A program made the position numbers and the translations under genes. Under the pieces are notes generated by a model. That model had not been told where the DNA came from and searched no databases. It saw only the letters and a list, made by a program, of their open reading frames with translations. A DNA stretch of 64,000 nt from Limnohabitans sp. Jir72 (GTDB lineage Bacteria > Pseudomonadota > Gammaproteobacteria > Burkholderiales > Burkholderiaceae_C): positions 62,001 to 126,000 of the forward strand of contig NZ_NESC01000003.1 of the NCBI RefSeq assembly GCF_003063575.1. The letters are read 5' to 3'. This document shows positions 33,020 through 53,509 of this stretch, piece after piece. The first letter of the stretch is position 1. The number at the start of each line of letters is the position of its first letter.

Positions 33020-33034
33020 TTTGGTGTCTCCCAA

Positions 33035-35547: not shown

Positions 35548-35556
35548 GCACACCAC

Positions 35557-36224: not shown

Positions 36225-36235
36225 TGTGAGTGCGC

Positions 36236-36958
36236 ATGTCTGAGTTGACCGAACCCAAACGCGCACGCGGCCGCCCCCGCAAGACCGAGGGCGAACGCGA
36301 CGATGGCAACCGGCGTCAGGCGCTCATCTCGGCTGCGGCGCAGCTGTTTCACCGCAAGGGCTACGACGCCACCAGCACCCGCGAAATCGCGGCGCAAGTG
36401 GGCATGCAGCCGGGCTCGCCGTTTTATCACTTCGGCAACAAACAAGACCTGTTGCTGGCCGTGATGGTCGAGGGCATGAAGCAAGCCAGCCATCGGCAAA
36501 CGGCCGCTTGCGCTGACCTGCCGGATGACCTGCCCCCACGCGAACAACTGCGCGTACTGATCCGCAACCAGTTCGATGTGCTGCTGGGACCGGACAGCGA
36601 CTTCATCCCGGTGATGCTTTACGAATGGCGCTCGCTGAGCGCCGAACAGCGCCAAACCATCACGCAAATCAAGGACGACTACGAAGCCGCCTGGACGCCC
36701 GTGTTGCAAACGCTGTATGACAGCGGGCAACTGCAAGCCCCCGTGGGTTTGGCCCGGCTGATGATTTTTGGCGCTTTGAACTGGGCGGTGCAGTGGTACC
36801 AGCCGACCGGCCAGAACTTGGCGACAAATGCGGCCAAGCATTCGGTTACACGCTCAAGCCAAACGGCGGCGAAAGCAACAGAGCCCAGTGCCCCACGCGC
36901 CTCCCTGGACGATTTGACCGAGGCCGCTCTGGCCTTGTTTTTGAGAGACCCCGCATGA
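36236..36958 (+). CDS. TetR/AcrR family regulator (AtuR-like position)
   Basis: This is a 240-residue repressor. The helix-turn-helix is at about residues 25-70 (LISAAAQLFHRKGYDATST, REIAAQVGMQPGSPFYHFGN, KQDLLLAVM). An N-terminal arm of basic residues (KRARGRPRK) may bind the minor groove. The ligand domain is typical of fatty-acid and acyl-CoA responsive types. The ATG at 36236 lies just after the REPIN array; no ribosome site is obvious. Its stop overlaps the SDR start (ATGA), so it leads the carboxylase operon, as AtuR does in Pseudomonas. The final ~40 residues are low-complexity. Confidence 0.88.
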   Translation: MSELTEPKRARGRPRKTEGERDDGNRRQALISAAAQLFHRKGYDATSTREIAAQVGMQPGSPFYHFGNKQDLLLAVMVEGMKQASHRQTAACADLPDDLPPREQLRVLIRNQFDVLLGPDSDFIPVMLYEWRSLSAEQRQTITQIKDDYEAAWTPVLQTLYDSGQLQAPVGLARLMIFGALNWAVQWYQPTGQNLATNAAKHSVTRSSQTAAKATEPSAPRASLDDLTEAALALFLRDPA

Positions 36959-37848
36959 ACCCCGCCACAACTTACCAATCCGTCTTTGCCCCCGACCTGC
37001 TGAGCGGACAAGTCATCCTGGTCACCGGCGGCGGCTCGGGCATTGGCCGCTGCACCGCGCACGAGCTGGCCAGCCTGGGCGCACATGTGGTGCTGGTGGG
37101 CCGCAACCCCGACAAGCTGAGCGCCACAGCGCAAGAGATCGTGGGTGACGGTGGTCAGGCGAGCTGGCACAGCACCGACATCCGGCGCGAGGACGATGTC
37201 AAAGCCATGGTCGCGCAGGTGGTGCAGCAGCACGGCCGCATTCATGGCGTGGTCAACAACGCGGGCGGGCAATACATCTCGCCCCTGGCCAGCACCAGCG
37301 CCAAGGGCTGGCAAGCGGTCATCGACACCAACTTGACGGGCGGCTTTTTGGTGGCGCGTGAGTGCTTCAACCAAAGCATGCAACAGCATGGCGGCGCGGT
37401 GGTCAACATCGTGGCCGACATGTGGGGCTCCATGCCCGGCATGGGCCACAGTGGCGCAGCGCGCGCGGGCATGGTCAGCTTCACCGAAACCGCCGCACTG
37501 GAATGGGCGGCGCACGGTGTGCGCGTCAACGCCGTGGCCCCAGGCTACATCGCCAGCAGCGGCATGGACCATTACCCGCCCGAGGCGGGAGACATGCTGC
37601 GCGCCATGCGCAACACCGTGCCACAAGGCCGCTTTGGCACCGAGGCCGAGACCTCAGCAGCGATTGTGTTTTTGCTGTCACCCGCAGCGAGTTTCATCAG
37701 CGGCACAGTGCTGCGCGTAGACGGTGCCCGCCCGCAAATGCGCATGGGCTGGCAGCAAGGTGTGGCCCAAGCCGATGTGCAAACACGCGATGCGGTCAAA
37801 CCGTTTAATGGCTTTCACCGTGCCGTGACCCCCAAGGTATTCCAATGA
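36955..37848 (+). CDS. SDR family oxidoreductase, PECR-like, lacking the usual Tyr-X3-Lys
   Basis: The product is a 297-residue NAD(P) oxidoreductase with the TGGGSGIG nucleotide loop (about residue 25) and the NNAGG motif. Where most SDRs have Tyr-X3-Lys, this one reads HSGAARAGMVSFTETAALEW. This is the style of peroxisomal trans-2-enoyl-CoA reductase (PECR) and 2,4-dienoyl-CoA reductases, but even their Tyr and Lys positions are Met and Glu here. The exact reaction is thus unclear; position suggests AtuB or AtuG, which act on terpene alcohol or acyl-CoA intermediates. ATGA overlaps on both sides couple it to tetR and to the carboxyltransferase. Confidence 0.8.
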   Translation: MNPATTYQSVFAPDLLSGQVILVTGGGSGIGRCTAHELASLGAHVVLVGRNPDKLSATAQEIVGDGGQASWHSTDIRREDDVKAMVAQVVQQHGRIHGVVNNAGGQYISPLASTSAKGWQAVIDTNLTGGFLVARECFNQSMQQHGGAVVNIVADMWGSMPGMGHSGAARAGMVSFTETAALEWAAHGVRVNAVAPGYIASSGMDHYPPEAGDMLRAMRNTVPQGRFGTEAETSAAIVFLLSPAASFISGTVLRVDGARPQMRMGWQQGVAQADVQTRDAVKPFNGFHRAVTPKVFQ

Positions 37849-39455
37849 ATTTCGAATCCACCTGGAACCCACACAGCCCCGTGGCGCAGCAAAGGCGTGA
37901 GGCCGCGCTGGCCCGCATGGCGCAGTGGCATGCCCTGCAAGACCGCGCAGCCCTTGCCTCTGCCCAGTCCAAACCGGTGTTCGACAAACGCGGGCAGTTG
38001 TTGCCGCGTGAGCGCGTGGCCTTGTTGCTGGACCCTGGCGCACCTTTCTTGCCACTGTGTGCTTTGGCAGGCTTCATGCAGGACACGCCGGACCCGACCA
38101 AATCGGTGCCCGGCGGCGGCATGATCACGGGCATTGGTTTCATCAGCGGTGTGCGCTGCATGGTGGTGGCCAGCGACTCGGGCATCGAGGCCGGAGCGAT
38201 TCAGGCACGCGGCCTTGAAAAGATTTTGCGCGTGCAAGAAGTCGCACTCGAAAACAAACTGCCTTTTGTGCACCTGGTCGAAAGCGCCGGGGCCAACCTG
38301 ATGCAATACAAGGTCGAGGGTTTTGTGTTGGGGGGCAGCCTGTTCCGCAACCTCGCCCGCCTGTCGGCGGCGGGCTTGCCGGTGCTCACGGTGCAACACG
38401 GCTCGGGCACCGCAGGCGGGGCCTACATGCCGGGCCTGAGTGACACCGTGATCATGGTACGTGGCAGGTCGCGCGCCTTTCTGGCCGGGCCACCTTTGCT
38501 CAAAGCCGCGACGGGCGAAGTGGCGACCGAAGAAGAACTGGGCGGGGCCGAGATGCACACCAGCGTGTCGGGCCTGGGCGAGTACCTGTGCGAAGACGAC
38601 CGCCACGCGCTGGGCACCGCACGCGATGTGGTGGCGCGTTGGGACTGGGCTGCGCGCAGTAACCGACGGGATGCCAAGCCCCCGCGCCTGGACGCCGAAG
38701 AACTGCTGGGCCTGATGCCCGCGCACCACCGCGAACCGATCGACATGCGCGAAGTCATCTTGCGCTTGGTGGACGACTCGGATTTTCTGGAATTCAAACC
38801 GCTGTTTGGCGCGGCCACGGTGTGCGCGCAAGCGCGCATCGGCGGGCATGCGGTGGGCATCATCAGCAACAACGGTCCGATCGATGTGGCCGGGGCCAAC
38901 AAGGCCACGCACTTCATCCAGTGGATGTGCCAGCTGGGCCACCCCATCATTTACTTGCAAAACACCACCGGCTACATGGTGGGCAAAGACAGCGAGCAAG
39001 GCGGCATGATCAAGCACGGCTCCAAGATGATCCAGGCCGTGACCAGCGCCACCGTGCCGCAGATCACCATCCAGTGCGGGGCCTCGTTTGGTGCGGGCAA
39101 CTACGGCATGTGCGGGCGGGGTTATGCACCGCGCTTTTTGTTCAGCTGGCCCGGCGCCAAAACGGCGGTCATGGGCGGCGAGCAAGCGGCCCGCACCATG
39201 CAGATCGTGGCCGAAGCCGGTATGGCCCGCAAAGGCATCACGCCCGACCCCGAGAAAATGCAAGCCCAGTTCGACAAGATCGTGGCCCTGTTTGAAGCGC
39301 AAGCCGATGCCTTCTACACCAGTGGCCTGGTGCTGGACGACGGCGTGATCGACCCGCGCGACACCCGCAGCGTGCTGAGCTTTTGCCTCGACACCTGTGC
39401 CGAGAGTGCAGCCCGCCAACTCCGCGCCACAAGCTTTGGCGTGGCCCGGATGTGA
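37845..39455 (+). CDS. atuC: Acyl-CoA carboxylase, carboxyltransferase (beta) subunit, AtuC-like
   Basis: This 536-residue subunit transfers CO2 from carboxybiotin to a 2-enoyl-CoA gamma-carbon. The family motifs are GGGMITGIGFISGVRC, the oxyanion GSGTAGGAYMPGLSD, the AGPPLLKAATGEVATEEELG block, and GASFGAGNYGMCGRGY with QAARTMQIV. The AGPPLLKAATGEVAT...GGAEMH wording matches geranyl-CoA carboxylase (AtuC) better than methylcrotonyl-CoA carboxylase. The order TetR, SDR, beta, ACAD, hydratase, alpha is the Pseudomonas atu order. The true substrate is not proven and another beta-methyl-branched enoyl-CoA is possible. Confidence 0.85.
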   Translation: MNFESTWNPHSPVAQQRREAALARMAQWHALQDRAALASAQSKPVFDKRGQLLPRERVALLLDPGAPFLPLCALAGFMQDTPDPTKSVPGGGMITGIGFISGVRCMVVASDSGIEAGAIQARGLEKILRVQEVALENKLPFVHLVESAGANLMQYKVEGFVLGGSLFRNLARLSAAGLPVLTVQHGSGTAGGAYMPGLSDTVIMVRGRSRAFLAGPPLLKAATGEVATEEELGGAEMHTSVSGLGEYLCEDDRHALGTARDVVARWDWAARSNRRDAKPPRLDAEELLGLMPAHHREPIDMREVILRLVDDSDFLEFKPLFGAATVCAQARIGGHAVGIISNNGPIDVAGANKATHFIQWMCQLGHPIIYLQNTTGYMVGKDSEQGGMIKHGSKMIQAVTSATVPQITIQCGASFGAGNYGMCGRGYAPRFLFSWPGAKTAVMGGEQAARTMQIVAEAGMARKGITPDPEKMQAQFDKIVALFEAQADAFYTSGLVLDDGVIDPRDTRSVLSFCLDTCAESAARQLRATSFGVARM

Positions 39456-39506
39456 GTTGTCCGTCATGACATCCACCTGCACATCTTTGAAATCGCTGCG
39501 TGACTT

Positions 39507-39606
39507 GTCATTGCGAGCGAAGCCTGACTTGTCATTGCGAGCAAAGCGTGGCAATCCAGCTTCGCGCCTGTGCAGGCACTGGATCGCCGCGCTTCGCTCG
39601 CGATGA
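39507..39606. repeat. Interspersed palindromic repeat (GTCATTGCGAGC type)
   Basis: A 76-base imperfect palindrome (39531-39606) pairs GTCATTGCGAGCAAAGCGTG with its complement ending CGCGATGAC. A further half copy begins at 39507. It lies in the 222-base gap between the carboxyltransferase and acyl-CoA dehydrogenase genes and is the only break in the coupled operon. Elements with this GTCATTGCGAGCGAAGC core are common dispersed repeats in many bacteria. Confidence 0.85.
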
Positions 39607-39677
39607 CGGACTTCATTTTCACGATTGAACGCTGTCACAGCCATTGAAACCCACTATGACGCAAAAGGAGACACACC

Positions 39678-40850
39678 ATGCAATACACCCACGAGCACCG
39701 CGAGATCCAGAACACGCTCAAGCGCTTCATCGAAGCCGAGATCAACCCCCATGTGGACGAGTGGGAAGCGGCCGAGATTTTCCCGGCGCACGAGGTCTTC
39801 AAGAAAATGGGCAATTTGGGTCTTTTGGGCCTGACCAAGCCCGAAGCCTTTGGCGGCGCGGGCTTGGATTATTCGTACAGCATGGCCATGGCCGAGGCAC
39901 TGGGCCACATCGACTGCGGCGGCATCCCCATGGCCATTGGTGTGCAGACCGACATGGCCACGCCCGCCTTGGCACGCTTTGGCAGTGACGAATTGCGCGC
40001 ACAATTTTTGGCCCCGGCGATTGCGGGCGACATGGTGGGCTGCATTGGCGTGAGCGAGCCCGGTGCGGGCAGCGATGTGGCGGGCATCAAAACCGTGGCC
40101 CGCAAGGACGGCGACGACTACGTGATCAGCGGCCAAAAAATGTGGATCACCAACAGCCTGCAGGCCGATTGGATGTGCATGCTGGTCAACACGGGGGAAG
40201 GCCCGATCCATAAAAACAAAAGCCTGGTCATGGTGCCCATGCGCGAAAACGGCAAGTTGCTGCCCGGCATCGAGGTGGGCAAAAAGATCAAAAAGATCGG
40301 CATGAACAGCAGCGACACGGGCTTGATTTATTTCGACGAGGTGCGTGTGCCGCAGCGCTACCGCATTGGGGCCGAGGGCCAGGGCTTCATCTACCAGATG
40401 CAGCAGTTTCAGGAAGAGCGCCTGTGGTGCGCGGCCAGCACGCTGCAATCCCTGACCAACTGCATCCAGTGGACGGTGGAATGGGCACAAGAGCGCAAGC
40501 TCTTTGGCAGCACCCTGGCCGACCAGCAGTGGGTGCAGTTCAAGCTGGCCGAACTCAAAGCCGATGTGGAGTGCCTGCGTGCCCTGACCTACCAGGCCTG
40601 CGAGCACTACATCGCAGGCGAAGACGTGACCGAATGGGCCACCATGGCCAAGCTCAAAGCGGGCCGTTTGAACCGCACGGTGCCCGATACCTGCTTGCAG
40701 TTTTGGGGCGGCATGGGCTTCACTTGGGAGAACAAGGTCTCGCGCATGTACCGCGACGGGCGTTTGGCCTCGATTGGTGGCGGTGCGGACGAGGTGATGT
40801 TGGGCATCTTGGCCAAGATGATGGGCATTGCCAAACGGCCTCAGAAATGA
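39678..40850 (+). CDS. Acyl-CoA dehydrogenase, AtuD-like
   Basis: This 390-residue FAD dehydrogenase desaturates an acyl-CoA. The flavin-site motifs are GCIGVSEPGAGSDVAG and YVISGQKMWITNSLQADW. The C-terminal loop reads SIGGGADEVM, so the medium-chain glutamate is replaced; a helix-G glutamate in QEERLWCA is the probable base. Citronellyl-CoA dehydrogenase AtuD has this pattern and this place between the carboxylase beta gene and the hydratase gene. A repeat-bearing gap upstream suggests it may have its own promoter. It overlaps the hydratase start by 4 bases. Confidence 0.88.
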   Translation: MQYTHEHREIQNTLKRFIEAEINPHVDEWEAAEIFPAHEVFKKMGNLGLLGLTKPEAFGGAGLDYSYSMAMAEALGHIDCGGIPMAIGVQTDMATPALARFGSDELRAQFLAPAIAGDMVGCIGVSEPGAGSDVAGIKTVARKDGDDYVISGQKMWITNSLQADWMCMLVNTGEGPIHKNKSLVMVPMRENGKLLPGIEVGKKIKKIGMNSSDTGLIYFDEVRVPQRYRIGAEGQGFIYQMQQFQEERLWCAASTLQSLTNCIQWTVEWAQERKLFGSTLADQQWVQFKLAELKADVECLRALTYQACEHYIAGEDVTEWATMAKLKAGRLNRTVPDTCLQFWGGMGFTWENKVSRMYRDGRLASIGGGADEVMLGILAKMMGIAKRPQK

Positions 40851-41677
40851 ACACAACCATCAACATGACAGTGAGCAACGCGTTGCAGATCACGCGCGAA
40901 GGTTCTGTCGAGACTTGGACCATGAACGACCCGGCCACACGCAACGCACTGAGCGACGCGGTGGTGGACGGCTTACTGCAAGCCTGTGCGCGAGCCGCAG
41001 CCGACAACACGCTGCGCATCGTGGTGCTGACCGGCGCAGGCGGTGCCTTTTGCGCGGGTGGCAGTTTGGGCGGCTTTGCCAGCCTGATTGGCCAGCCCTT
41101 GCAAGACGGGCAAACCGACCCGTTGCTGGCGATGAACCGGGGATTTGGTGACCTGCTGCACGCTCTGAGCGCCCTGCCCCAGCTGCTGGTGTGCCGGGTG
41201 GATGGCGCGGCCATGGGCGGCGGTTTTGGCCTGGTGTGCTGCGCCGACCATGTGGTGGCCACAGCACGCTCGGTATTGGGCACACCCGAAGTCACCCTGG
41301 GCTTGACACCGGCGCAGATCGCGCCTTTTGTGTGGCAACGCCTGGGCGAGAGTGCTGCACGCCAGTGCCTGCTGCAAGGGCTGAGCTACACCGCCGCCCA
41401 AGCACTGCAAGTGGGTCTGGTCCATGAAGTGGTTGAGCAGCACAGCGACGAAGCCTGGCAGGCCATTTTGCAGCGCCTCATCCGTGCTGCGCCCGGCGCA
41501 GTGGCCAGCACCAAACAACTGCTGCGGCAACTGCGTGGCCCTGTGCCTGATTTGCGCGATGCCGCTGCACAAGCTTTTGCACAAGGCTTGCGCAGCGCCG
41601 AAGCCGCGCAAGGTCTGGCCGCGTTTGCACGCAAACAGCCTGCGCCTTGGACACTTTCTGGCAAGGACCCTGCATGA
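40847..41677 (+). CDS. Enoyl-CoA hydratase/isomerase family protein, AtuE-like
   Basis: A 276-residue crotonase-fold enzyme. The oxyanion residues are in AFCAGGSLGGFA and in RVDGAAMGGGFGLVCCADHV. In the first block the usual aspartate of CAGGDLK is a serine, which AtuE-type (isohexenylglutaconyl-CoA) hydratases also tend to alter. ARSVLGTPEVTLGLTPAQIA holds the second conserved glutamate region. The ATG at 40847 overlaps the previous stop (ATGA) and the alpha-subunit start overlaps its end, so it is tightly coupled. It should hydrate the carboxylated enoyl-CoA. Confidence 0.83.
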   Translation: MNTTINMTVSNALQITREGSVETWTMNDPATRNALSDAVVDGLLQACARAAADNTLRIVVLTGAGGAFCAGGSLGGFASLIGQPLQDGQTDPLLAMNRGFGDLLHALSALPQLLVCRVDGAAMGGGFGLVCCADHVVATARSVLGTPEVTLGLTPAQIAPFVWQRLGESAARQCLLQGLSYTAAQALQVGLVHEVVEQHSDEAWQAILQRLIRAAPGAVASTKQLLRQLRGPVPDLRDAAAQAFAQGLRSAEAAQGLAAFARKQPAPWTLSGKDPA

Positions 41678-43680
41678 CATCCACTTTGCCCACCACTGTG
41701 CCCAACACCGTAAACGCCCAAGTCACCCGCCTGCTGATTGCCAACCGGGGCGAGATCGCCCGCCGCGTGATCCGCACGGCCCGCCGCATGGGCATCCAGA
41801 CGGTGGCCGTTTATTCAGACGCCGACCGCGACGCCTTGCATGTGCAAGAAGCCGACACCGCGTTCGCTTTGGGCGGCACCTTGTCGGCCGACTCGTATTT
41901 GCGCATCGACAAACTGCTGGCGGCAGCGCAGGCCACCGGAGCTGATGCGGTGCACCCGGGTTATGGCTTCCTGAGTGAAAACGCCGAGTTCGCTCAGGCC
42001 GTGATCGACGCGGGCCTGACCTGGGTCGGCCCACCGCCCGAGGCCATCCGCGCCCTGGGCAGCAAGTCGGCCGCCAAAGCACTGGCCCTGCAGCACGGCG
42101 TGCCTTGCTTGCCTGGCTACTTTGGCGCGGACCAAAGCGATGCCACCTTCACCGCACAGGCTGAGCAATTGGGTTTGCCGCTGATGGTCAAGGCCGTGGC
42201 CGGAGGCGGCGGACGCGGCATGCGCTTGGTGACCGACATGGCGCAGCTGCTGTCCGCGCTGCACAGCGCTCGCTCGGAAGCACTGGCCGGTTTTGGCAAC
42301 GGCGACTTGCTGATGGAGCGCGCCTTGCTGCGCCCCCGCCACATCGAGGTGCAAATCATGGCCGACCAGGATGGCCACTGCATCCACCTGGGTGAGCGCG
42401 ACTGCTCAGTGCAGCGGCGTCACCAAAAGATCATCGAAGAATCGCCAAGCCCGGCCGTGAGCGCTGCGCTGCGCGAGCAACTCGGGCAAGCGGCCATTGC
42501 CCTCGCACAATCGGCGGGCTATGTGGGTGCGGGCACGGTGGAGTTTTTGCTGGACGAGGCCCAAGCCGACAAACCGTTTTATCTCATGGAGATGAACACC
42601 CGGCTGCAGGTGGAACACCCGGTGACCGAGATGCTCACGGGGCTCGACTTGGTCGAGTGGCAGCTGCGCATTGCACGCGGTGAAGCGCTGCCCCTGGCGC
42701 AAGCCGATGTGCGCCTGCAAGGCCACGCCATCGAGGTGCGCCTGTGCGCCGAAGACGAACACTTCACGCCGCAGACTGGCACGGTGCAAGCTTTTGCAGC
42801 GCCAAAGGGCTTGCGCTTTGACCATGCGCTGCACGCGGGTGCAGTGGTCACGCCCCACTACGACGCCATGCTGGGCAAGCTGATTGCCCACGCGCCCACC
42901 CGCGCTGAAGCCATCGACCGCCTGCGCACGGGCTTGGACCAGACCGCTGTGCTGGGCCTGCCCACCAACCGCGCCTTTTTGGCCGCGTGCTTGCAGCACC
43001 CGGTGTTCCGTGCGGGTGAAGCCTTGATCCCTTTCCTGGCCGAACAGGCCGATGCGGTGCGCCAAAGCTTGCAAGCCACGAACGAAGCCCGCACCGTGGC
43101 CGTGCTGGCTGTGCTCTTCGCCGATCAAGCACCCGCAGCCGCGATGCCCAGCCCGTTCATGCGACCCGTGCGCATGGGCCTGGGTGAAGAGGTCTTGGCG
43201 CTGAACCTGCAGGAACTGGGGCAAGGCCGAGTGCGCATTCAAACAGGCGAGGCCACACACGAGGCCAGCGTGCAGCGCATCGCTGAACAACTGCACATCG
43301 ACTTGAACGGCTGCCGCTGGCAAGCCCGCGTTGTGGCATGCCGGAGCACCACCAACGCTGTGCAGTGGCATGTGCAGCTGCAAGGCCACGAATGTTTTGA
43401 GCTGTGGCTCACCGACCAAAGCCACAGCGCGCCCAGCACAGGCGCCAGCGCACAAGCCGCGCAGTCGTTGCGCGCACCTTTCAACGGCAAGCTGATCGCA
43501 CTGCATGTGCAAGAAGGCCAATCGGTCCAACAAGGCGACGCCGTGCTGGTGATCGAATCGATGAAGCTGGAACACATTTTGTGCGCCCCACGCGATGCGG
43601 TGGTGCACAGCCTCTCGGCCATCGTGGGCCAGCAAGTGGGCCCAGGCCAAGTGCTGGTGCAATGGAAGGACGCCGCATGA
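41674..43680 (+). CDS. atuF: Acyl-CoA carboxylase alpha subunit (biotin carboxylase + biotin carrier), AtuF-like
   Basis: The 668 residues hold an ATP-grasp biotin carboxylase (residues ~10-455) and a C-terminal biotinyl domain (~600-668). Carboxylase motifs include LLIANRGEIARRVIRTAR, HPGYGFLSENAEFA, GGGGRGMRLV, RRHQKIIEE and EMNTRLQVEHPVTEM. The biotin lysine is in VIESMKLEH. It charges biotin with bicarbonate using ATP and supplies the AtuC-like subunit. It is preceded and followed by ATGA overlaps. Placing the alpha gene after the hydratase is as in atuE-atuF. Confidence 0.93.
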   Translation: MTSTLPTTVPNTVNAQVTRLLIANRGEIARRVIRTARRMGIQTVAVYSDADRDALHVQEADTAFALGGTLSADSYLRIDKLLAAAQATGADAVHPGYGFLSENAEFAQAVIDAGLTWVGPPPEAIRALGSKSAAKALALQHGVPCLPGYFGADQSDATFTAQAEQLGLPLMVKAVAGGGGRGMRLVTDMAQLLSALHSARSEALAGFGNGDLLMERALLRPRHIEVQIMADQDGHCIHLGERDCSVQRRHQKIIEESPSPAVSAALREQLGQAAIALAQSAGYVGAGTVEFLLDEAQADKPFYLMEMNTRLQVEHPVTEMLTGLDLVEWQLRIARGEALPLAQADVRLQGHAIEVRLCAEDEHFTPQTGTVQAFAAPKGLRFDHALHAGAVVTPHYDAMLGKLIAHAPTRAEAIDRLRTGLDQTAVLGLPTNRAFLAACLQHPVFRAGEALIPFLAEQADAVRQSLQATNEARTVAVLAVLFADQAPAAAMPSPFMRPVRMGLGEEVLALNLQELGQGRVRIQTGEATHEASVQRIAEQLHIDLNGCRWQARVVACRSTTNAVQWHVQLQGHECFELWLTDQSHSAPSTGASAQAAQSLRAPFNGKLIALHVQEGQSVQQGDAVLVIESMKLEHILCAPRDAVVHSLSAIVGQQVGPGQVLVQWKDAA

Positions 43681-44846: not shown

Positions 44847-44856
44847 TCCCATCCAA

Positions 44857-44897
44857 GAAAAAACCGCCAGGCCCTTGCGGGCACTGGCGGTTTTTTT
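44857..44897. terminator. Bidirectional rho-independent terminator
   Basis: AAAACCGCCAG and CTGGCGGTTTT form an 11-base stem around a short loop, flanked by A and T runs on both sides. It lies between the convergent carboxylase operon and the transporter operon and can stop both. Confidence 0.9.
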
Positions 44898-44918
44898 GTG
44901 CAGCCGAAGCTGCATCGA

Positions 44919-46085: not shown

Positions 46086-46122
46086 GGGGCTTGTCTCCTG
46101 TTGAAAGTGAAAAGTGAATCGG

Positions 46123-47979
46123 TCAGCGGTACATCGCCTCGATCTGAGGGGCGTATTTTTTCTCCACCAGTTTGCGCTTGAGCTTCATGGTGGGGGTCAA
46201 CTCTTCGTCTTCGGCCGAGAGTTGGGTGTCGAGCAACCAGAATTTCTTGAGCTGTTCAACGCGGGCAAACTTCTTGTTCACACGCTCCATCTCGCCCTGA
46301 ATGAGGGCCTGCACCTCGGCAGCATGGGTCAGGCTGGCGTAGTTGGAGAAGGGCACATCGTTGTCTTGTGCGTATTTCTCCACGTTTTCCTGATCGATCA
46401 TGATGATCACAGTGAGGTAGGCCCGTTTGTCGCCAATGACCACGGCATCGGTGATGTACGGCGAGAATTTCAATTCGTTTTCCAGTTCGCTCGGGGTGAT
46501 GTTCTTGCCCCCTGCCGTGATGATGATGTCTTTCATGCGGTCGGTGATGCGGAAAAACCCTTCCTCATCGACCACACCCACATCGCCCGTGTGCAGCCAG
46601 CCTTCGGCGTCGATGCTCTCGGCGGTTTTCTCGGGCAGGTTCAGGTAGCCCATGAACACATTGGGGCCGCGCACCAAGATCTCGCTGGTGACCGGGTCCA
46701 AGCGCACTTCGTTGAAGTCAGCGGCCGGGCCAATCGAGCCGGGCTTGATGTGGTTGGCTGGCACGCCAGTGGCAGCGCCACAGGTTTCGGTCATGCCCCA
46801 GACTTCCAACATGGGCAGACCCAAGGCCAAATACCAGCGCACCAGATCGGGCGAGATGGGGGCCGCACCTGTGACCAAAAAGCGGGCTTTGTGGATGCCG
46901 ATCATCTTGCGCACATTGTTCAGTGCCAGCAAGCGCGCCACATGAAAGCGCGCCTTCAGGTGAGCAGGTACAGGCTTGCGCGACAACACCAACTCGGCCA
47001 CCTGCTGGCCCACACCGATGGCCCAGCCATACACGGCTTGTTGAAAGCCGCCGGCTTCCTTGAGCGCGATCATCACGCCGGAATAAAACTTTTCCCACAC
47101 ACGCGGCACGCCGGTGAACACGGTGGGGGCAATTTCGCGCACGTTTTCGGGCACGGTTTCCGGGTTCTCGACAAAGTTGAGTTTGGCACCGGTGTAGAGC
47201 GAGAAATACTCGCCGCCCATGCGCTCGGCGATGTGGCACAGCGGCAAAAAGCACATGCACTCGTCGGTCTCATCGCGAGCGATCAGGGTGTTGTAGCCGC
47301 GCACGCTGTAGACCAAACCACGGTGGCTGTGCATGCCGCCTTTGGGTTTGCCAGTGGTGCCCGAGGTGTAGACCAAAATCGCCAAATCTTCGGGGCGGCA
47401 AGCGGCTGTGCGTTGCGCCAGCAGGTCGGGGTGGGCCGCCAGATGCTCGCGGCCCAAAGCGCGCAAGTCAGCGAGACTGATCACTTGCGGGTCTTTGAAC
47501 TCGCGCAGACCGTCCATGTCGAACACAACGATTTTTTTGAGCAGCGGCAATTTGTCGCGCACGGCCAAGGCTTTGTCGAGTTGCTCGTCGTCTTCGACAA
47601 ACAACACGGACGTGCCCGAGTCTTCGCTCAGGTAATGCACCTGATCGGCCGCGTCGGTGGGGTAGATGCCATTGGCCACGCCACCGGCACTGAGCACCGC
47701 CAGATCACACAGCACCCATTCGATGTTGGTGTTCGACAGGATGGACGCGGTGTGGTGGGCCTCAAAGCCCAGTGACATGAGGCCATGGCCGATCTCGCGC
47801 ACGGCCTGTGCGGTTTCGTTCCAAGTCCAGCTGCGCCAGATGCCCAGCTCTTTTTGGCGCATCCACACATTGGGGCCGCGTGCGGCCACAGCGTTCCAGA
47901 AAATGGCGGGGATGGTCTCGCCCGCCATGACGATGTTTTTGTTAGGCGCAATGCGCGAGGCGTCCCAGAGGTTGCTCAT
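46123..47979 (-). CDS. AMP-dependent acyl-CoA synthetase/ligase
   Basis: The 618-residue ligase activates a carboxylic acid to its CoA ester through an acyl-adenylate. Signature motifs are LVYTSGTTGKPKGGMHSH (ATP/AMP-binding P loop), LEVWGMTETCG (substrate side), and GWLHTGDVGVVDEEGFFRIT, then DRMKDIIITAGGKNITPSEL with the hinge and catalytic lysine. The length fits long-chain (FadD15/Faa-type) ligases rather than the 540-residue class. It lies between livF and the binding-protein gene in the transporter operon, so the imported acid is probably activated on entry. Confidence 0.9.
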   Translation of the reverse strand: MSNLWDASRIAPNKNIVMAGETIPAIFWNAVAARGPNVWMRQKELGIWRSWTWNETAQAVREIGHGLMSLGFEAHHTASILSNTNIEWVLCDLAVLSAGGVANGIYPTDAADQVHYLSEDSGTSVLFVEDDEQLDKALAVRDKLPLLKKIVVFDMDGLREFKDPQVISLADLRALGREHLAAHPDLLAQRTAACRPEDLAILVYTSGTTGKPKGGMHSHRGLVYSVRGYNTLIARDETDECMCFLPLCHIAERMGGEYFSLYTGAKLNFVENPETVPENVREIAPTVFTGVPRVWEKFYSGVMIALKEAGGFQQAVYGWAIGVGQQVAELVLSRKPVPAHLKARFHVARLLALNNVRKMIGIHKARFLVTGAAPISPDLVRWYLALGLPMLEVWGMTETCGAATGVPANHIKPGSIGPAADFNEVRLDPVTSEILVRGPNVFMGYLNLPEKTAESIDAEGWLHTGDVGVVDEEGFFRITDRMKDIIITAGGKNITPSELENELKFSPYITDAVVIGDKRAYLTVIIMIDQENVEKYAQDNDVPFSNYASLTHAAEVQALIQGEMERVNKKFARVEQLKKFWLLDTQLSAEDEELTPTMKLKRKLVEKKYAPQIEAMYR

Positions 47980-47982
47980 CTC

Positions 47983-48771
47983 TTATCTCCAGGTTTTCTT
48001 CTTTTTCCAGCGGCGGTCGGCGCGCACGCCCTCTTCCTTCATGCCCAGATAGAACTCCTTGATGTCGTCCTTTTCACGCAAGCGGGCACAGCTGTCTTCC
48101 ATCACGATGCGGCCGTTTTCCAGCACATAGCCGTAGTCCGAGGCATTGAGCGCCATGTTGGCGTTTTGCTCCACCAGCAAGATGGTGGTGCCGCGTTCGC
48201 GGTTGATGCGCACGACGATCTCAAAAATCTCTTTGGTCAGCTTCGGACTCAAACCCAAGCTGGGTTCGTCGAGCAAGATCAGATCGGGGTTGGCCATGAG
48301 GGCACGGCTGATCGCCAGCATCTGCTGCTGACCGCCCGAGAGCAAGCCTGCATCTTGCGCGGCACGCTCACGCAGGATCGGAAAGTAGTTGAACACCGCT
48401 TCCATGTCGCGGGCCACACCATCGCGGTCGTTGCGGGTGAAAGCCCCCATGAGCAGGTTGTCGCGGATCGACAGCAGAGGGAACACCTCGCGCCCTTCGG
48501 GCACATGCATCAGGCCGCGCTGCACGATGAGCGCCGGGTCCATGGCGGTGATGCTTTGGCCCTTGAATTCAACCGAGCCTTTGCGCGGGTCGATGATGCC
48601 GCTGATGGTTTTGAGGATGGTGGTCTTGCCCGCCCCGTTGGAGCCCAGCACGGTGGCGATTTCGCCTTTTTTGACCTGCAAGCTCACGCCCCGGATGGCC
48701 TTGATCGGGCCATAGGCGCTTTCCACGTTGAGCAGTTTGAGGACGATGTCCTCGGTCACGACGTCGTTCAT
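47983..48771 (-). CDS. livF: LivF-type ABC transporter ATPase
   Basis: This is one of the two ATPases that power the importer. Walker A is GSNGAGKTT (about residue 40), the signature is LLSGGQQQMLAIS, Walker B is ILLDEPSLGLSP, and the switch histidine lies in LLVEQNANMA, all in LivF style. At 262 residues it carries a slightly longer C-terminal tail than average. Its start overlaps the livG stop by 4 bases. Confidence 0.93.
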   Translation of the reverse strand: MNDVVTEDIVLKLLNVESAYGPIKAIRGVSLQVKKGEIATVLGSNGAGKTTILKTISGIIDPRKGSVEFKGQSITAMDPALIVQRGLMHVPEGREVFPLLSIRDNLLMGAFTRNDRDGVARDMEAVFNYFPILRERAAQDAGLLSGGQQQMLAISRALMANPDLILLDEPSLGLSPKLTKEIFEIVVRINRERGTTILLVEQNANMALNASDYGYVLENGRIVMEDSCARLREKDDIKEFYLGMKEEGVRADRRWKKKKTWR

Positions 48772-49598
48772 GCGGCCTCCGCTTTGTAATTTTCGCGGCG
48801 CAGCGCAGACACATCGTCCACCGAACCCAGATACGCCTCGATGACGCCGGGATCGCTTTGCACCTGGCTGGGCGTGCCGGTGGCCAGCTCCTGGCCTTGG
48901 CTCATGGCCAGCACGCGGTCAGACACTTTGGACACCAGGCCCATGTCGTGTTCGACCATGAGCACCGAAATGCCCAACTCGTGTTGGATGTCGGAAATCC
49001 AGAAGGCCATGTCTTCGGTTTCTTCGACGTTCAAGCCCGAAGAAGGCTCGTCCAACAAAAGCAGCTTGGGCTCGGTGCACAGGGCGCGGGCCAGCTCGAC
49101 CACCTTGCGCACGCCATAGGGCAAGCCCGCCACCATCGAATCGCGGTGGTGTTGCAGGTCCAGGAAGTCGATGACTTCTTCGACTTTCTCACGCGCTTCG
49201 ACCTCGGCCGCACGGGTTTTGCTGCTGAAAAACATCTCGCGCCACAGCCCGGTTTTGCGGTGCGTGTGGCGACCGATCAACAGGTTTTGCAGCACGGTGG
49301 CGTGTTCGAACAGCTCGATGTTTTGAAACGTGCGGGCAATGCCCAGCCCGGCAATGTTGTGTGGCGGCTGGTCGGTCAGGCGCAGCGTGCCATCAGGCCC
49401 CGCATAGTCGATCGTGCCCGTGGTGGGCGTGTAGATGCGGCTGATCAGGTTAAAGACCGTGGTCTTGCCTGCGCCGTTGGGGCCGATCAGGGTGAACACT
49501 TCGCCGCGCTTGACGTCAAAGCTGACGTTGTTGACGGCCAACACACCGCCAAAGCGGACGCTCAGGTTTTGAGCTGATAAAAGGATGTCGTCGTTCAT
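48768..49598 (-). CDS. livG: LivG-type ABC transporter ATPase
   Basis: This is the second ATPase of the importer. Walker A is GPNGAGKTT, followed by the LivG insertion TIDYAGPDGTLRLTDQPPH and IARTFQNIELFEHATVLQN. PYGVRKVVELARAL replaces the strict LSGGQ signature, as is usual in LivG. Walker B is LLLLDEPSSGLN, with switch MVEHDMGLV. The ATG at 49598 (MNDDILLS) overlaps the livM stop; the longer open frame is not needed. It has 276 residues. Confidence 0.93.
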   Translation of the reverse strand: MNDDILLSAQNLSVRFGGVLAVNNVSFDVKRGEVFTLIGPNGAGKTTVFNLISRIYTPTTGTIDYAGPDGTLRLTDQPPHNIAGLGIARTFQNIELFEHATVLQNLLIGRHTHRKTGLWREMFFSSKTRAAEVEAREKVEEVIDFLDLQHHRDSMVAGLPYGVRKVVELARALCTEPKLLLLDEPSSGLNVEETEDMAFWISDIQHELGISVLMVEHDMGLVSKVSDRVLAMSQGQELATGTPSQVQSDPGVIEAYLGSVDDVSALRRENYKAEAA

Positions 49599-50671
49599 TT
49601 GAGGCGGTCCGACTTCTGGAAGGATTTCTGGCGCTTGAACATGCCACGGCGGTAAAACGGAAACAGCTGGAACCAGGTGCGTACCTTGAGCCAACGGCCG
49701 TACAGACCCAGCGGTTCAAACAACACAAAGGCGATCAGCACCATGCCATACACCGTGCCTTGCAAGCCGGTGGCACCGCCAATGGCAGCAGGCAAAAAGT
49801 CTTTGCCCATGGCAATCAGCTGGGGCATGACGATCAAAAAGATCGCGCCCAAAAATGCGCCATGCACCGAACCCAAACCACCGATCACCACCATCAGCAG
49901 CAAGTCGATCGACTGGATGATGTTGAACTGGTCGGGCGACAGGAACTGGATCTTGTGCGCATACAAAGCGCCGCCAATGCCGGCCAGCGCGGCCGACAAG
50001 GCAAAGGACAAGGTCTTGTAGCGGGCCAAGTGGATGCCCATGCTTTGCGCCGAAATTTCAGAATCGCGGATGGCGACAAAGGCGCGGCCGGTGGAAGAGC
50101 GCAGCAAGTTGAGGATGGCCAGCGTGGCCCCTACCGCCACCACCAGGCACAGGAAATAAAACGCTTCGGTGCTGTCCAACGTCCAGCCCAACATGGCCGG
50201 AGGATTGACGCTCAGACCTGCGTTGCCGCCGGTCATGTGTTCCCAACGCGCAATGCCTTCTTCGACGATGAAGCCAAAGGACAAAGTGGCCATGCCCAGG
50301 TAAATGCCTTTGACACGCAGCGCGGGCAAACCCACCACCACACCGGCGATGGCTGAGAACAGTCCCGCGCAAATCAGCGCCAGCGGAAAGGGCACACCGG
50401 CATTGACCATCACCGCTTCGGTGTAGGCACCCACCCCCAAAAAGGCCGCGTGCCCCATGGAAAACAGGCCGGTGAAGCCCGCCAACAGCATGAGGCCCAG
50501 GCCCACCACCGCGTAGATCAGCACAAAGGTCAATTGCGCCAGCCAGTATTCGGCCAGCACCCAGGGTGCGGCTACAAGAAACACAGCCAGCAGGCTGTAC
50601 CAAAAGACATGGCCGCCATGCTTGGCCAGCGTGATGTCCTGGTTGTATTGGGTTTTGAAAATGAATCGCAT
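49595..50671 (-). CDS. livM: LivM-type ABC transporter permease
   Basis: This 358-residue integral membrane permease has about ten hydrophobic segments, including GLGLMLLAGFTGLFSMGHAAF and LPALRVKGIYLGMATLSFGF, both typical of LivM (G-L-x-SFG-H-A motif and the coupling loop). SRRSTGRAF-like cytoplasmic loop residues (LLRSSTGRAFVAIRD, with EISAQSMGI) and LSAALAGIGGALYAHKI complete the picture. It pairs with LivH, 9 bases downstream of it. Confidence 0.92.
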   Translation of the reverse strand: MRFIFKTQYNQDITLAKHGGHVFWYSLLAVFLVAAPWVLAEYWLAQLTFVLIYAVVGLGLMLLAGFTGLFSMGHAAFLGVGAYTEAVMVNAGVPFPLALICAGLFSAIAGVVVGLPALRVKGIYLGMATLSFGFIVEEGIARWEHMTGGNAGLSVNPPAMLGWTLDSTEAFYFLCLVVAVGATLAILNLLRSSTGRAFVAIRDSEISAQSMGIHLARYKTLSFALSAALAGIGGALYAHKIQFLSPDQFNIIQSIDLLLMVVIGGLGSVHGAFLGAIFLIVMPQLIAMGKDFLPAAIGGATGLQGTVYGMVLIAFVLFEPLGLYGRWLKVRTWFQLFPFYRRGMFKRQKSFQKSDRLK

Positions 50672-50680
50672 GCGAGGGCC

Positions 50681-51556
50681 TCAGACTTTCTTGCGCAGTT
50701 TTTCGCCAAACAAGCCATTGGGCTTGAGCACCAGCATGAGCAAGACCACGATGTAGGGCGCGATGTCTTTCACGCCCTCGGGCAAATAGAAGCCGGACAA
50801 GGACTCGACGATGCCGATCACCAAGCCACCGACAATGGCACCGGGCAAACTGCCAAAGCCGCCGACCACCGCTGCGGGGAAGGCTTTGAGGCCAATGAAG
50901 CCCATGTTGGCGTGCACAAAGGTGATGGGCGCGAGCAGCAAACCCGCCACCGCCGCCACACCTGCGGCCAGGCCCCAAACCAAGCCGTTCAGGCTTTGCA
51001 CCGGGATGCCCATGTAATAAGCCGCCAACTGGTTCTGCGAAGAAGCCTGCATGGCGATGCCCAGCTTGCTGTACTTGAACATGGCAAATAGCCCCAAGCA
51101 AAGCACAGAAGTGAAAGCGATCACCACCAGCTGCTCGGCCGCCACCACCAGCGCGCCCATCTGCAAAACCTGCCCGGCATAGGGCACAGGCATGGTGTGG
51201 GTGTCGGTGCCCACATCGGGGATCATGGTGATCAGGCCGCGCAGCACATAACCCACGCCGATGGTCAGCATGACGATGGAGAAAGCCGGTTGACCCAGGA
51301 TTGGGCGGATGACCAAGCGTTCGAGCAAGACGCCAAACACGCCCATGGCCACGATGGCGGCAGGCACCGAGACCCAAAACGGGAAACCCAGCCACGTCAT
51401 GGCGCCCAAGCCCGCAAAGGCCCCGACCATCATCAGGTCGCCCTGGGCAAAGCTCACCGTTTCGGTGGCCTTGTAAATCAGCACGAAACCCAGGGCAATG
51501 AGTCCATAGATACAGCCCTGAGCCACGCCGCTGATGAGCAGTTGCAGCACTTGCAC
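50681..51556 (-). CDS. livH: LivH-type ABC transporter permease (GTG start)
   Basis: This 291-residue permease is the first gene of the transporter operon. It has eight to nine membrane segments, with SGVAQGCIYGLIALGFVLIY at the N terminus and SQNQLAAYYMGIPVQSLN, then the QxGxxAxxAxxxG-like VVGGFGSLPGAIVGGLVIG loop. The GTG at 51556 is preceded at 7 bases by AAGGAGA; the frame is open further upstream, but without a ribosome site. It is divergent from atuA; the 169-base gap holds a candidate operator. Confidence 0.92.
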   Translation of the reverse strand: MQVLQLLISGVAQGCIYGLIALGFVLIYKATETVSFAQGDLMMVGAFAGLGAMTWLGFPFWVSVPAAIVAMGVFGVLLERLVIRPILGQPAFSIVMLTIGVGYVLRGLITMIPDVGTDTHTMPVPYAGQVLQMGALVVAAEQLVVIAFTSVLCLGLFAMFKYSKLGIAMQASSQNQLAAYYMGIPVQSLNGLVWGLAAGVAAVAGLLLAPITFVHANMGFIGLKAFPAAVVGGFGSLPGAIVGGLVIGIVESLSGFYLPEGVKDIAPYIVVLLMLVLKPNGLFGEKLRKKV

Positions 51557-51632
51557 GCTTGTCTCCTTTTTTGTACTTCTGTCGTCCTGCACCAGTCCGG
51601 ATGGAACCTGTGGTTCATGCCCTGACCATTTG

Positions 51633-51646
51633 CGAACGGTCGTGCG
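51633..51646. promoter_or_regulatory. Candidate operator between livH and atuA
   Basis: CGAACG-GT-CGTGCG is an imperfect palindrome (CG-N-ACG-NN-CGT-N-CG), centrally placed in the divergent promoter gap. Its ACG-NN-CGT core resembles sites of TetR-type repressors of acyl-CoA catabolism. It could coordinate transporter and AtuA expression. Confidence 0.4.
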
Positions 51647-51725
51647 ATTGTGTATGTCTTTCACGAGACTGACCCTAGGGGTTGTCCCCCATCCACAGTC
51701 ACGTGCGGGGCATCAAGATGGCCCC

Positions 51726-53117
51726 ATGACGCAATCCATACGCATTGGCTCAGGACTCGGTTTTTATGGTGACAACTGGGAGCCTGTGGTCGCCAGCATT
51801 GAACGCGGCGAGGTGCAGTACATCGCCAGCGACCACCTGGCCGAATTGACCTTGGCCATCTTGCACAAAGACCGGCAACGCGACCCCACGCTGGGCTATA
51901 CCCGCGATGTGGTGCCCATGCTCATGCGCCTGTGGCCCTTGATGCAAGCGCGCGGTGTGAAGTTTGTGTGCAATGCCGGAGGCCTGAACCCCATGGGCGC
52001 GGCACAAGCGGTGCAAACAGCGCTGGCGGGCAAAGGTTGGCACCCGCGCATTGCGGTGGTGTCGGGCGACGATGTGCTCGGTCTCTTGCAAGACGAACAA
52101 ACACGCTTTGACCACCTGATGAATGGCAGCGACGTGGGCACGGTGCGTGAGCGCTTGGTGTTTGGCAATGCCTACCTCGGGGCACAACCCATCGTGGATG
52201 CCTTGTCGCAAAGTGCGGACATCGTCATCACCGGCCGCGTGGCCGACGCGGCCTTGTTTCTGGGCCCCTTGGTGCACGGCCTGGGTTGGAGACTCAGCGA
52301 TGCCCAATCGCCCGAAGACTTCAAGCGCTTGGCACAAGGCCTGACCGTGGGGCATTTGCTGGAATGTTCGGGCCAGGGCAGCGGCGGCAATTTTGGCGAC
52401 CAAGGGCACTGGCAAAGCATTCCGGATCTGGGCCACATCGGCTACCCGATCGCCGAAGTTTTTGCCGACGGCACGGCCATCATCACCAAAGCACCCGGTA
52501 CAGGCGGGCTGGTGAACTTTGACACCGTGCGCCAGCAATTGCTCTACGAGGTGCACAACCCGCACGCGTATTTTTCACCCGATGTGGTGCTCGACATGGG
52601 GCAGATCCAGTTGCAAGACGAAGGCCACAACCGCGTGCGTTTGACCGGCGCACAAGGCAGCGCACCCACCCCACAACTGAAGGTGGTGGCAGGCTTCAAG
52701 GACGGCTACAAGGCCGACATCAGCTGGGGCTTTTCATGGCCCGATGCTTGGGACAAAGTGCAGGCGGCCGAGCGCATCGTCCGCGAGCAATTGCGCGAAC
52801 GGAAAATACCTTTCGATGAATTGTTTGTGGAGTACCCGGGTCTGAACTCCGCGCACGGGGCTTTGGCCCCTCTGCCGCCCGCCGCCGAACTCAATGAACG
52901 CCACGAAATCTGGGTGCGCATGGTGCTGCGCACGCCGAGCAAAGCCGCTGCCGATGGCTTTGGTCGACTGTTCCCGTGGATGGCTTTGAGCGGCCCGGCC
53001 TACACCTGCGGATTTCAGGGCCTGAACAACACCAGCGAGCTGCTGGGCATCTGGCCTACGCTGATCGACCGGCATCGGGTGCAGGCCCGCGTAGAACTGC
53101 TGGAGGTGCAAGCATGA
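51726..53117 (+). CDS. atuA: AtuA family protein (DUF1446)
   Basis: A 463-residue DUF1446 protein, beginning MTQSIRIGSGLGFYGDNWEP and continuing with YIASDHLAELTLAILHKDR, VKFVCNAGGLNPMGAAQAV, DIVITGRVADAALFLGPLVH and ECSGQGSGGNFGDQG. AtuA is needed for acyclic terpene (citronellol) growth in Pseudomonas, but its reaction is not established; a role in acyl-CoA chemistry is inferred. The ATG at 51726 follows a short ribosome region; an open extension to 51534 overlaps livH and is rejected. The stop overlaps the next gene (ATGA). Together with the small partner the length approximates that of long AtuA forms. Confidence 0.88.
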   Translation: MTQSIRIGSGLGFYGDNWEPVVASIERGEVQYIASDHLAELTLAILHKDRQRDPTLGYTRDVVPMLMRLWPLMQARGVKFVCNAGGLNPMGAAQAVQTALAGKGWHPRIAVVSGDDVLGLLQDEQTRFDHLMNGSDVGTVRERLVFGNAYLGAQPIVDALSQSADIVITGRVADAALFLGPLVHGLGWRLSDAQSPEDFKRLAQGLTVGHLLECSGQGSGGNFGDQGHWQSIPDLGHIGYPIAEVFADGTAIITKAPGTGGLVNFDTVRQQLLYEVHNPHAYFSPDVVLDMGQIQLQDEGHNRVRLTGAQGSAPTPQLKVVAGFKDGYKADISWGFSWPDAWDKVQAAERIVREQLRERKIPFDELFVEYPGLNSAHGALAPLPPAAELNERHEIWVRMVLRTPSKAAADGFGRLFPWMALSGPAYTCGFQGLNNTSELLGIWPTLIDRHRVQARVELLEVQA

Positions 53118-53509
53118 GCACGACACGGCGCATCCCCTTGGTGCAACTGGCCCACGCCCGCAGCGGCGACAAGGCCGACTGGGTCGACTTCGGCCTGTTT
53201 GCCTGGAACGAAGCGGGCTACCGCATCCTCGAGCGCGAAGTGACTGCGGCCAAAGTGCAGGCGCATTTTTCGCCCTGGCTGCCAGGCCAAGTTGATGTCT
53301 GGCAGTTGCCCCATATCCTGGCCATCAAGCTGGTGCTGCACGGCGCCTTGCAAGGCGGCGGTGCGCGCAATCTGCGCCTGGACAACCTGGGCAAAGCCAT
53401 GGGCGCAGCGCTGCTGCGCATGGAGATCGAAGTCAGCGACGAAGAATTCGAGCAAGCACAAAAAAGCCCCCGAAGGGGCTGGTGGCCCGGGGTGCCACCG
53501 CGGCCCTGA
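53114..53509 (+). CDS. AtuA C-terminal-domain-like small protein
   Basis: This 131-residue protein carries the small domain that follows DUF1446 in longer AtuA proteins: LAHARSGDKADWVDFGLFAW, then ILAIKLVLHGALQGGGARN and LGKAMGAALLRMEIEVSDEE. It overlaps the atuA-like stop by 4 bases, so the two parts are made together and likely bind each other. The last ~20 residues (after EFEQAQKS) are proline- and arginine-rich and run into a repeat, so the original stop may have been lost to an insertion. Confidence 0.8.
   Translation: MSTTRRIPLVQLAHARSGDKADWVDFGLFAWNEAGYRILEREVTAAKVQAHFSPWLPGQVDVWQLPHILAIKLVLHGALQGGGARNLRLDNLGKAMGAALLRMEIEVSDEEFEQAQKSPRRGWWPGVPPRP

Follow-up and report, generated by a model that had tools for sequence, protein, structure and literature searches.

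A probable comamonad variant of the acyclic-isoprenoid (Atu) pathway in Limnohabitans sp. Jir72, with BKACE apparently in place of AtuA in relatives lacking AtuA

The present study examined a 64,000-nucleotide stretch of DNA, hereafter the window, that lies at positions 62001-126000 of its contig (NZ_NESC01000003.1, assembly GCF_003063575.1) in the 3.69 Mb genome of Limnohabitans sp. Jir72, and that carries an operon resembling the atu genes of Pseudomonas together with a Liv-type importer operon and an AtuA. We read the locus as a variant of the Atu pathway with an unexpected apparent enzyme swap in its relatives: the genes probably encode the acyclic-isoprenoid (Atu) pathway in a comamonad form, and in relatives without AtuA a BKACE protein (PF05853) apparently stands in its place. 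The swap is the new element, and the window itself is without BKACE. The set looks like an apparently full complement of genes for the import and breakdown of branched isoprenoid acids, and its features are the following (positions in the window; ACAD, acyl-CoA dehydrogenase; GCC, geranyl-CoA carboxylase; MCC, methylcrotonyl-CoA carboxylase; BCCP, biotin carboxyl carrier protein).

30860..33034, minus strand: FadB-like bifunctional enoyl-CoA hydratase/3-hydroxyacyl-CoA dehydrogenase (PF00378, PF02737, PF00725)
33035..34240, minus strand: thiolase, divergent from the operon, candidate for 3-oxoacyl-CoA thiolysis (NF006090, 698.8 bits, cut-off 514)
34313..34325, unstranded: predicted AtuR-type operator AGCAAACGCTTTG (2 mismatches to the published strict site)
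34366..35547, plus strand: acyl-CoA dehydrogenase ACAD0, immediately 5' of tetR in many relatives
35551..36222, unstranded: tandem repeat of 144 bp in 4.7 copies, filling the ACAD0-tetR gap
36230..36958 (start probably 36236), plus strand: TetR-family regulator, AtuR-like by place and operator (PF00440, PF17932)
36955..37848, plus strand: SDR dehydrogenase in the AtuB position (Pfam)
37845..39455, plus strand: carboxyltransferase beta subunit, GCC-type (Pfam; Gly163 at the MCC Phe191 position)
39678..40850, plus strand: acyl-CoA dehydrogenase ACAD1 in the AtuD position (Pfam)
40841..41677 (start approximate), plus strand: crotonase/enoyl-CoA hydratase in the AtuE position (Pfam)
41674..43680 (start approximate), plus strand: biotin carboxylase-BCCP alpha subunit in the AtuF position (Pfam)
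43680..44846 (start approximate), plus strand: second acyl-CoA dehydrogenase ACAD2 (Pfam)
44858..44896, unstranded: perfect 13-nt inverted repeat with a terminal T-run, a likely terminator between the convergent operons
44919..46085, minus strand: LivK-type periplasmic binding protein (PF13458)
46123..47979, minus strand: AMP-dependent acyl-CoA ligase within the importer operon (PF00501)
47983..48771, minus strand: LivF ATPase (PF00005)
48768..49598 (start approximate), minus strand: LivG ATPase (PF00005, PF12399)
49595..50671, minus strand: LivM permease (PF02653)
50681..51553 (start approximate), minus strand: LivH permease (PF02653)
51726..53117, plus strand: AtuA core, first half of a split AtuA (PF07287, 434 bits; type-I clade)
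53111..53509, plus strand: AtuA2, the AtuA_ferredoxin domain as its own gene (PF23544, 78 bits)
53572..54774, minus strand: PcaF-like thiolase (3-oxoadipyl-CoA thiolase PcaF model, 688 bits, cut-off 597)

Conservation and extent of the locus

Loci for comparison were the best 80 of 223 confirmed matches to the carboxylase beta subunit. The beta subunit of the window is 91-97% identical to those of 30 loci (L008-L037), mostly from Limnohabitans, Comamonadaceae or Burkholderiales (one, from a metagenome-assembled genome labelled Akkermansia, is probably mislabelled), and 76-83% identical to those of 50 loci from Hydrogenophaga, Comamonas, Ramlibacter, Ottowia, Acidovorax, and others. An earlier note, made from the letters of this DNA, had given the gene order as TetR, SDR, carboxyltransferase, dehydrogenase, crotonase, alpha subunit, and second dehydrogenase, which Pfam bore out. 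The order TetR, SDR, carboxyltransferase (CT), ACAD1, biotin carboxylase (BC), ACAD2 is complete in 62/80 loci and is thus conserved beyond chance; the remaining 18 have two to five of the six genes, many of them being short contigs. Of the 62 full loci, 53 have the crotonase between ACAD1 and BC; the operons without it at that place are L049, L063, L068, L069, and L076-L080.

The genes that the earlier note assigned to the module are present, but the operon begins 5' of the range it gave, at ACAD0 (34366-35547). ACAD0 is taken here as the first operon gene because 16/30 Limnohabitans loci have a gap of no more than 1 bp (-1 to 1 bp) between it and tetR; the window, with 683 bp, is among the 30. 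The predicted operator precedes ACAD0, which directly precedes tetR in many relatives, and the module therefore begins near 30860 with FadB, the thiolase, and the dehydrogenase. FadB adjoins the thiolase and the operon in those Limnohabitans loci that are long enough to show it, and also in some more distant ones (L127, L175, L178, L198). At the other end, the thiolase that follows AtuA had been counted as part of the module, a claim we do not uphold: the protein is PcaF-like by score and its place is not conserved, since it adjoins AtuA in 7/10 other Limnohabitans regions and in none of the Hydrogenophaga loci examined.

The 144-bp unit that fills the ACAD0-tetR gap of the window, in an array directly 5' of tetR, has internal 15-nt inverted repeats. 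By eye, L019 has a similar unit at this position, and the gap of some other Limnohabitans loci holds further repeat-like sequences; because repeats fill the same gap in these loci, the gap looks like an insertion hot spot.

Carboxylase type and predicted operator

The beta subunit of the window scored 587 bits against GCC (5ikl) and 451 bits against MCC (3u9r). According to PMC4673880, Phe191 of MCC corresponds to Gly162 of GCC, MCC has a three-residue insertion there, and exchange of the residue moves activity between the two substrates. In our alignment, where Phe191 was located as the F of HFGR in the human MCC row by position count, the window has Gly163 at this position without the insertion, and LiuB of the same genome (L002) carries both Phe and the insertion; the two Phe rows of the alignment are this one gene, and three rows are one gene of propionyl-CoA carboxylase (PCC). 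In a beta-subunit tree of 35 rows, the window fell within a 29-row clade that includes 5ikl (support 99/96), and four references together with the own LiuB stood apart (95/84). The alpha subunit of the genome's liu cluster matches BT_MCC_alpha (PF21139) and that of the window does not. The earlier note had claimed an Atu-like rather than an MCC or PCC carboxylase and had proposed both the tree and the pocket residue as checks; the tree left the claim standing, the pocket is of GCC type, and together with the alpha subunit these results support an assignment of the window's predicted carboxylase to the Atu-like (GCC) type.

Regulation was approached through the operator. The published AtuR site is AGCAAGCGCTTGG (PMC9973270), and the window matches this strict site with two mismatches at 34313-34325. 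Both differences fall at core positions, and a search with the 10-base AtuR core missed the window site for that reason. The motif was relaxed from G to R at position 6; since this relaxation followed sight of L118, counts for the strict site are given alongside the relaxed ones. In one window alone the relaxed pattern is not significant, being reached by 19/100 shuffles, and its support is conservation across loci. With at most two mismatches, the relaxed site occurs within 200 bp before tetR in 45/66 non-Limnohabitans loci, as compared with 0.65 expected from shuffles that keep base composition only, and in 0/74 regions before ACAD1 and 0/74 before ACAD2, two control sets that are mostly coding DNA. 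Within Limnohabitans the relaxed site is rare 5' of tetR (1/30 within 100 bp) and lies between the thiolase and ACAD0 in 25/25 intact gaps, 6/31 loci having no usable gap. The strict site was found in 36/66 tetR-upstream regions and 23/25 Limnohabitans gaps. These counts omit L119 and L120 (repeats of L039 and L054) as well as loci with less than 200 bp upstream or without a TetR match; L123 was kept although it comes from the same genome as L082, and, because the loci are related, the counts are not independent. The site match points to a predicted AtuR-type regulator and operator in the locus, the regulator being assigned from its place and operator.

The thiolase-ACAD0 distance is about 2.25 kb in L008, L009, and L020, as compared with about 125 bp in other Limnohabitans loci. 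Before AtuA, an operator was found in 3/22 LivH-AtuA regions scanned, namely in L118 and, with two mismatches, in L121 and L174. At about 51650-51725 an intergenic block between LivH and AtuA (CTAGGGGTTGTCCCCCAT and its neighbours), apparently common to Limnohabitans and Hydrogenophaga, is a possible promoter or operator. An Acidovorax tetR described in PMC4204640 was considered as a relevant regulator and rejected; it is a different tetR, from a pqi cluster.

AtuA, BKACE, and their distribution among relatives

AtuA had been described in the earlier note as displaced to the far side of the transporter operon. It is indeed present there, with the minus-strand Liv genes (44919-51553) in between, but as two open reading frames rather than one: AtuA (PF07287) and its ferredoxin-like domain are both present as separate genes. 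In L129 the order is TetR-AtuA-AtuA2-SDR-CT-ACAD1-ECH-BC-ACAD2 (ECH, enoyl-CoA hydratase), matching atuR-A-B-C-D-E-F, and because the genes are contiguous there, the view that AtuA belongs with the operon despite their separation is supported. The divergent arrangement of LivK-ligase-LivFGMH and AtuA-AtuA2 recurs in 10/10 fetched Limnohabitans regions and in 8/16 further genomes (20 regions), most of which were chosen for an AtuA near the carboxylase and several of which hold other carboxylase groups; the L128 stretch stops before AtuA2, which was found there separately. The Liv-type importer with its embedded acyl-CoA ligase, also put forward in the earlier note, is accordingly a conserved companion of the locus. 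In the more distant loci L125 and L126 a relative of TetR (39-46% identity) sits between LivH and AtuA, directly 5' of AtuA.

An AtuA tree of 48 rows resolved three deep clades, type I (18 rows, including the window), type II (15), and type III (15). Type-I AtuA is split in 17/17 rows (15 distinct genes), type II consists mostly of fused proteins of about 600 aa, and type III is split. AtuA types appear to alternate too, because an AtuA of 36-38% identity adjoins group-A carboxylases (those closest to the window, see below) in L130, L131, and L171, the first two being type II and the third lying outside the tree. No PDB relative of AtuA was returned by phmmer at E up to 1, and an AlphaFold model built from the single AtuA sequence had a mean pLDDT of 35, too low to be of use.

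BKACE follows ACAD2 in 9/80 loci, comprising five from Comamonas, three from Acidovorax, and one from a gammaproteobacterial metagenome-assembled genome. The genome of Comamonas testosteroni SWCO2 (G137), which has such a locus, gave no AtuA match. Operon-linked BKACE proteins of Comamonas and Acidovorax are full-length members of PF05853 (281 and 278 bits), and no NCBIfam equivalog cut-off was reached by the two proteins scanned. The C. testosteroni protein aligns with Kce (2y7d) at its His-x-His and Arg/Glu positions, which we take to be functional.

One family sample of 120 genomes was used for the carboxylase, BKACE, and AtuA searches, with calls at E of at most 1e-150 for a GCC-like carboxylase, E of at most 1e-60 for BKACE, and at least 200 bits to PF07287 for AtuA; the weak AtuA matches of G035, G048, and G095 were counted as absent. 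The carboxylase was found in 51/120 genomes. Sequences most like that of the window (72-87% identity) are termed group A here; group C is a clade of 16 rows (99/99) at about 53-56% identity. All 18 genomes with BKACE (64-90% identity) are among these 51 (14 in group C, 4 in group A), and BKACE is present in 0/69 genomes without the carboxylase. AtuA was found in 61/120 genomes, 36 of them among the 51. In the 51 genomes the two proteins are distributed in a complementary manner (BKACE without AtuA, 14; both, 4; AtuA without BKACE, 32; neither, 1; Fisher p 3e-8, computed on related, non-independent genomes), and the lone genome with neither, G095, has a fetched locus cut by a contig end and a weak AtuA match only. 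Phylogenetic independence is limited (4-6 events): the distribution of BKACE on the carboxylase tree requires six changes or more, and of four supported independent pairs, on average, 2.5 go in the expected direction, 0.1 in the opposite direction, and 1.4 show no difference. Within 51 selected group-A genomes, type-I AtuA (at least 64% identity) occurs in 27, and in 0/10 of those with BKACE.

BKACE is also linked to the carboxylase by position. In 17/18 genomes the two share a strand and are no more than about 6.5 kb apart (in G103 BKACE is on another contig). In 13/13 fetched group-C loci, the first same-strand match to follow the alpha subunit is BKACE, the alpha match being partial in L178, L180, and L183; L179 and L181 likewise have nothing between the two. 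LivK and the ligase adjoin the BKACE operons of L167 and L168, whose genomes are without AtuA, and no Liv or ligase genes were found in the stretches fetched for L169 and L170. Among the open-licence papers listed by the literature searches, none linked BKACE, Kce, or DUF849 to acyclic terpenes, geranyl-CoA, or AtuA, as judged by term counts or title.

Proposed pathway and competing explanations

The steps proposed here draw on family membership, gene order, and operator conservation. LivKHMGF would take up an isoprenoid acid with a methyl branch, and the ligase encoded within the importer operon would form its CoA ester; the presence of this importer and ligase suggests that an acid rather than an alcohol is imported. 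ACAD1 would then desaturate the ester to a 3-methyl-2-enoyl-CoA, the GCC-type carboxylase (beta at 37845, alpha at 41674) would carboxylate the 3-methyl group, and hydration by the crotonase would give a 3-hydroxy-3-alkylglutaryl-CoA. The two-part AtuA (51726, 53111) would act at the next cleavage stage, which removes the two-carbon branch, and the thiolase, FadB, and the two other dehydrogenases would carry out beta-oxidation. Finally, 3-methylcrotonyl-CoA, in which the Atu pathway ends according to PMC4097962 and PMC4847356, would pass to the separate liu cluster of the genome, which lies on the same contig at about 252.8-259.2 kb and encodes 3-hydroxy-3-methylglutaryl-CoA (HMG-CoA) lyase, the alpha subunit, a crotonase, and the beta subunit. 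TetR would repress the gene set at 34313.

In relatives without AtuA, HMG-CoA lyase, provided that it splits 3-hydroxy-3-alkylglutaryl-CoA in the way it splits HMG-CoA, could yield acetyl-CoA together with a beta-keto acid in free form. BKACE would turn this acid, with acetyl-CoA, into a shortened acyl-CoA and acetoacetate. This corresponds to the BKACE reaction in PMC6365646, where the acetyl part of a beta-keto acid is moved to acetyl-CoA to give an acyl-CoA and acetoacetate. In our reading, a single late step is solved by AtuA in some genomes and by BKACE in others. That they are truly interchangeable, each following an HMG-CoA-lyase-type cleavage and returning the free beta-keto acid to the CoA track, is a tentative proposal that we would not yet favour. 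Were it true, AtuA would not be the acetate lyase hitherto assumed, and lineages with BKACE would bypass a CoA-thiolase.

The lyase step itself has been credited to more than one protein. LiuE of P. aeruginosa reportedly has this lyase activity, to judge by the title of a 2010 paper. A review (PMC4097962) names LiuE for the step and credits it with lyase activity giving acetate and a 3-oxoacyl-CoA, a role for AtuA after geranyl-CoA carboxylation is the subject of speculation in PMC9973270, and PMC4847356 places AtuA among enzymes characterised or tentatively identified. The step is thus assigned differently between publications, and a non-homologous enzyme that occupies the place of AtuA, and whose type of reaction is known, narrows the possible roles of AtuA and allows a direct complementation test. 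The locus also suggests isoprenoid-acid degradation by Limnohabitans, a freshwater genus for which phytoplankton would be a plausible source of such carbon.

Much of this layout follows atuRABCDEFGH of Pseudomonas aeruginosa and P. citronellolis, with the regulator, SDR, carboxylase, dehydrogenase, and crotonase in B-C-D-E-F order and with AtuA, the operator sequence, and an acyl-CoA ligase all present in the window; the Pseudomonas order is the one given in the literature. Unlike in Pseudomonas, the AtuA of the window is split, belongs to a divergent clade, and stands beside the importer, and the window has extra dehydrogenases, FadB, a thiolase, and a Liv importer with its own ligase. No atuG or atuH was found after atuF in the window by Pfam, a different ligase being located in the Liv operon, whereas atuF in Comamonas is followed by an SDR and ligases. 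Thauera linaloolentis 47Lol (PMC4847356) likewise has betaproteobacterial Atu genes outside the Pseudomonas operon order and separate liu genes, but there linalool isomerase and geraniol oxidation genes are nearby and AtuA has 615 aa. The liu cluster (MCC and HMG-CoA lyase) shares homologous carboxylase chemistry and differs from the window in its LiuB, with Phe and the 3-residue insertion, and in its alpha subunit with a BT_MCC_alpha domain. The full-length operon-linked proteins of Comamonas and Acidovorax belong to the BKACE family (PF05853; Kce, 2y7d), which is not represented in the window.

Several results count against the comamonad Atu reading with its BKACE exchange. The family of the window (21 rows) is a clade by itself (100/98), sister to the five-row branch of characterised GCC (97/88); PCC rows also show Gly at the pocket column, so that Gly is not unique to GCC and the pocket alone is not decisive; and GCC, MCC, and PCC are treated in PMC3199775 as specialisations of promiscuous acyl-CoA carboxylases. 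The substrate may be a monoterpenoid acid or a longer compound. The crotonase of the window reached 124 bits against a gamma-carboxygeranoyl-CoA hydratase model with a cut-off of 426, and no crotonase was found between ACAD1 and BC in 9/62 full loci. The window AtuA is 34-43% identical to AtuA rows of other types. No operator was found before AtuA in 11 Limnohabitans LivH-AtuA regions, window included, nor, at up to two mismatches, in 11/11 SDR-upstream regions measured in group C (the measured SDR of L179 and L181 is not at the operon start). Four genomes carry both BKACE and AtuA, and a sign test on four independent pairs cannot reach 0.05. HMG-CoA lyase homologues are present in 49/49 genomes tested, controls included, and the enzyme is therefore available without being diagnostic; G056, with BKACE and without AtuA, has only a distant homologue (39%).

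That the locus is a second MCC locus for leucine or isovalerate is very improbable: the subunit architecture is alike and the best PDB match listed for the alpha subunit is MCC alpha, in a list that holds no GCC alpha chain, but the tree, the pocket Gly, the missing MCC insertion, and the absence of a BT_MCC_alpha match argue otherwise, and the same genome has a separate liu cluster whose beta subunit carries Phe. A GCC-type pathway for some other methyl-branched acid, such as phytenic or farnesoic acid, a steroid side chain, or a signal fatty acid of the diffusible signal factor (DSF) type, is a quite realistic possibility, given the open pocket, a clade distinct from characterised GCC, and an atu-like cluster tied to DSF degradation in Pseudomonas nitroreducens (PMC9973270). 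Against such a pathway stands an AtuR operator shared with the citronellate system, which suggests a similar inducer. Among the open-licence matches listed, literature on phytol and beta-decarboxymethylation yielded nothing usable.

It is conceivable, if somewhat doubtful, that BKACE marks operons with a different substrate rather than replacing AtuA. Such a marker would fit the placement of 14/18 BKACE genomes in the separate clade of group C, where the AtuR operator was not found, the four genomes with both genes, and the BKACE loci L169 and L170 without Liv or ligase genes in the stretch fetched. However, BKACE also ends operons of group A, whose carboxylase is of the same type, and in L167 and L168 it adjoins both LivK and the ligase. 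Tree neighbours differ as well: G047 (BKACE, no AtuA) pairs with G087 (unlinked AtuA) at 100/95, and G013 (BKACE, no AtuA) with G101 (linked type-I AtuA) at 86/91.

Two minor observations concern the surroundings of the operon. The gap between the beta gene and ACAD1 of the window holds a short repeat (39484-39607) that contains an imperfect inverted repeat of 29 nt (86%) and that looks, by eye, like a dispersed REP-like element. In Comamonas testosteroni (L083, L061; about 0.6-7.2 kb) a minus-strand gene set adjoins the operon and comprises crotonase-, ligase-, dehydrogenase-, SDR-, and thiolase-like genes together with two MaoC-type hydratase-like proteins.

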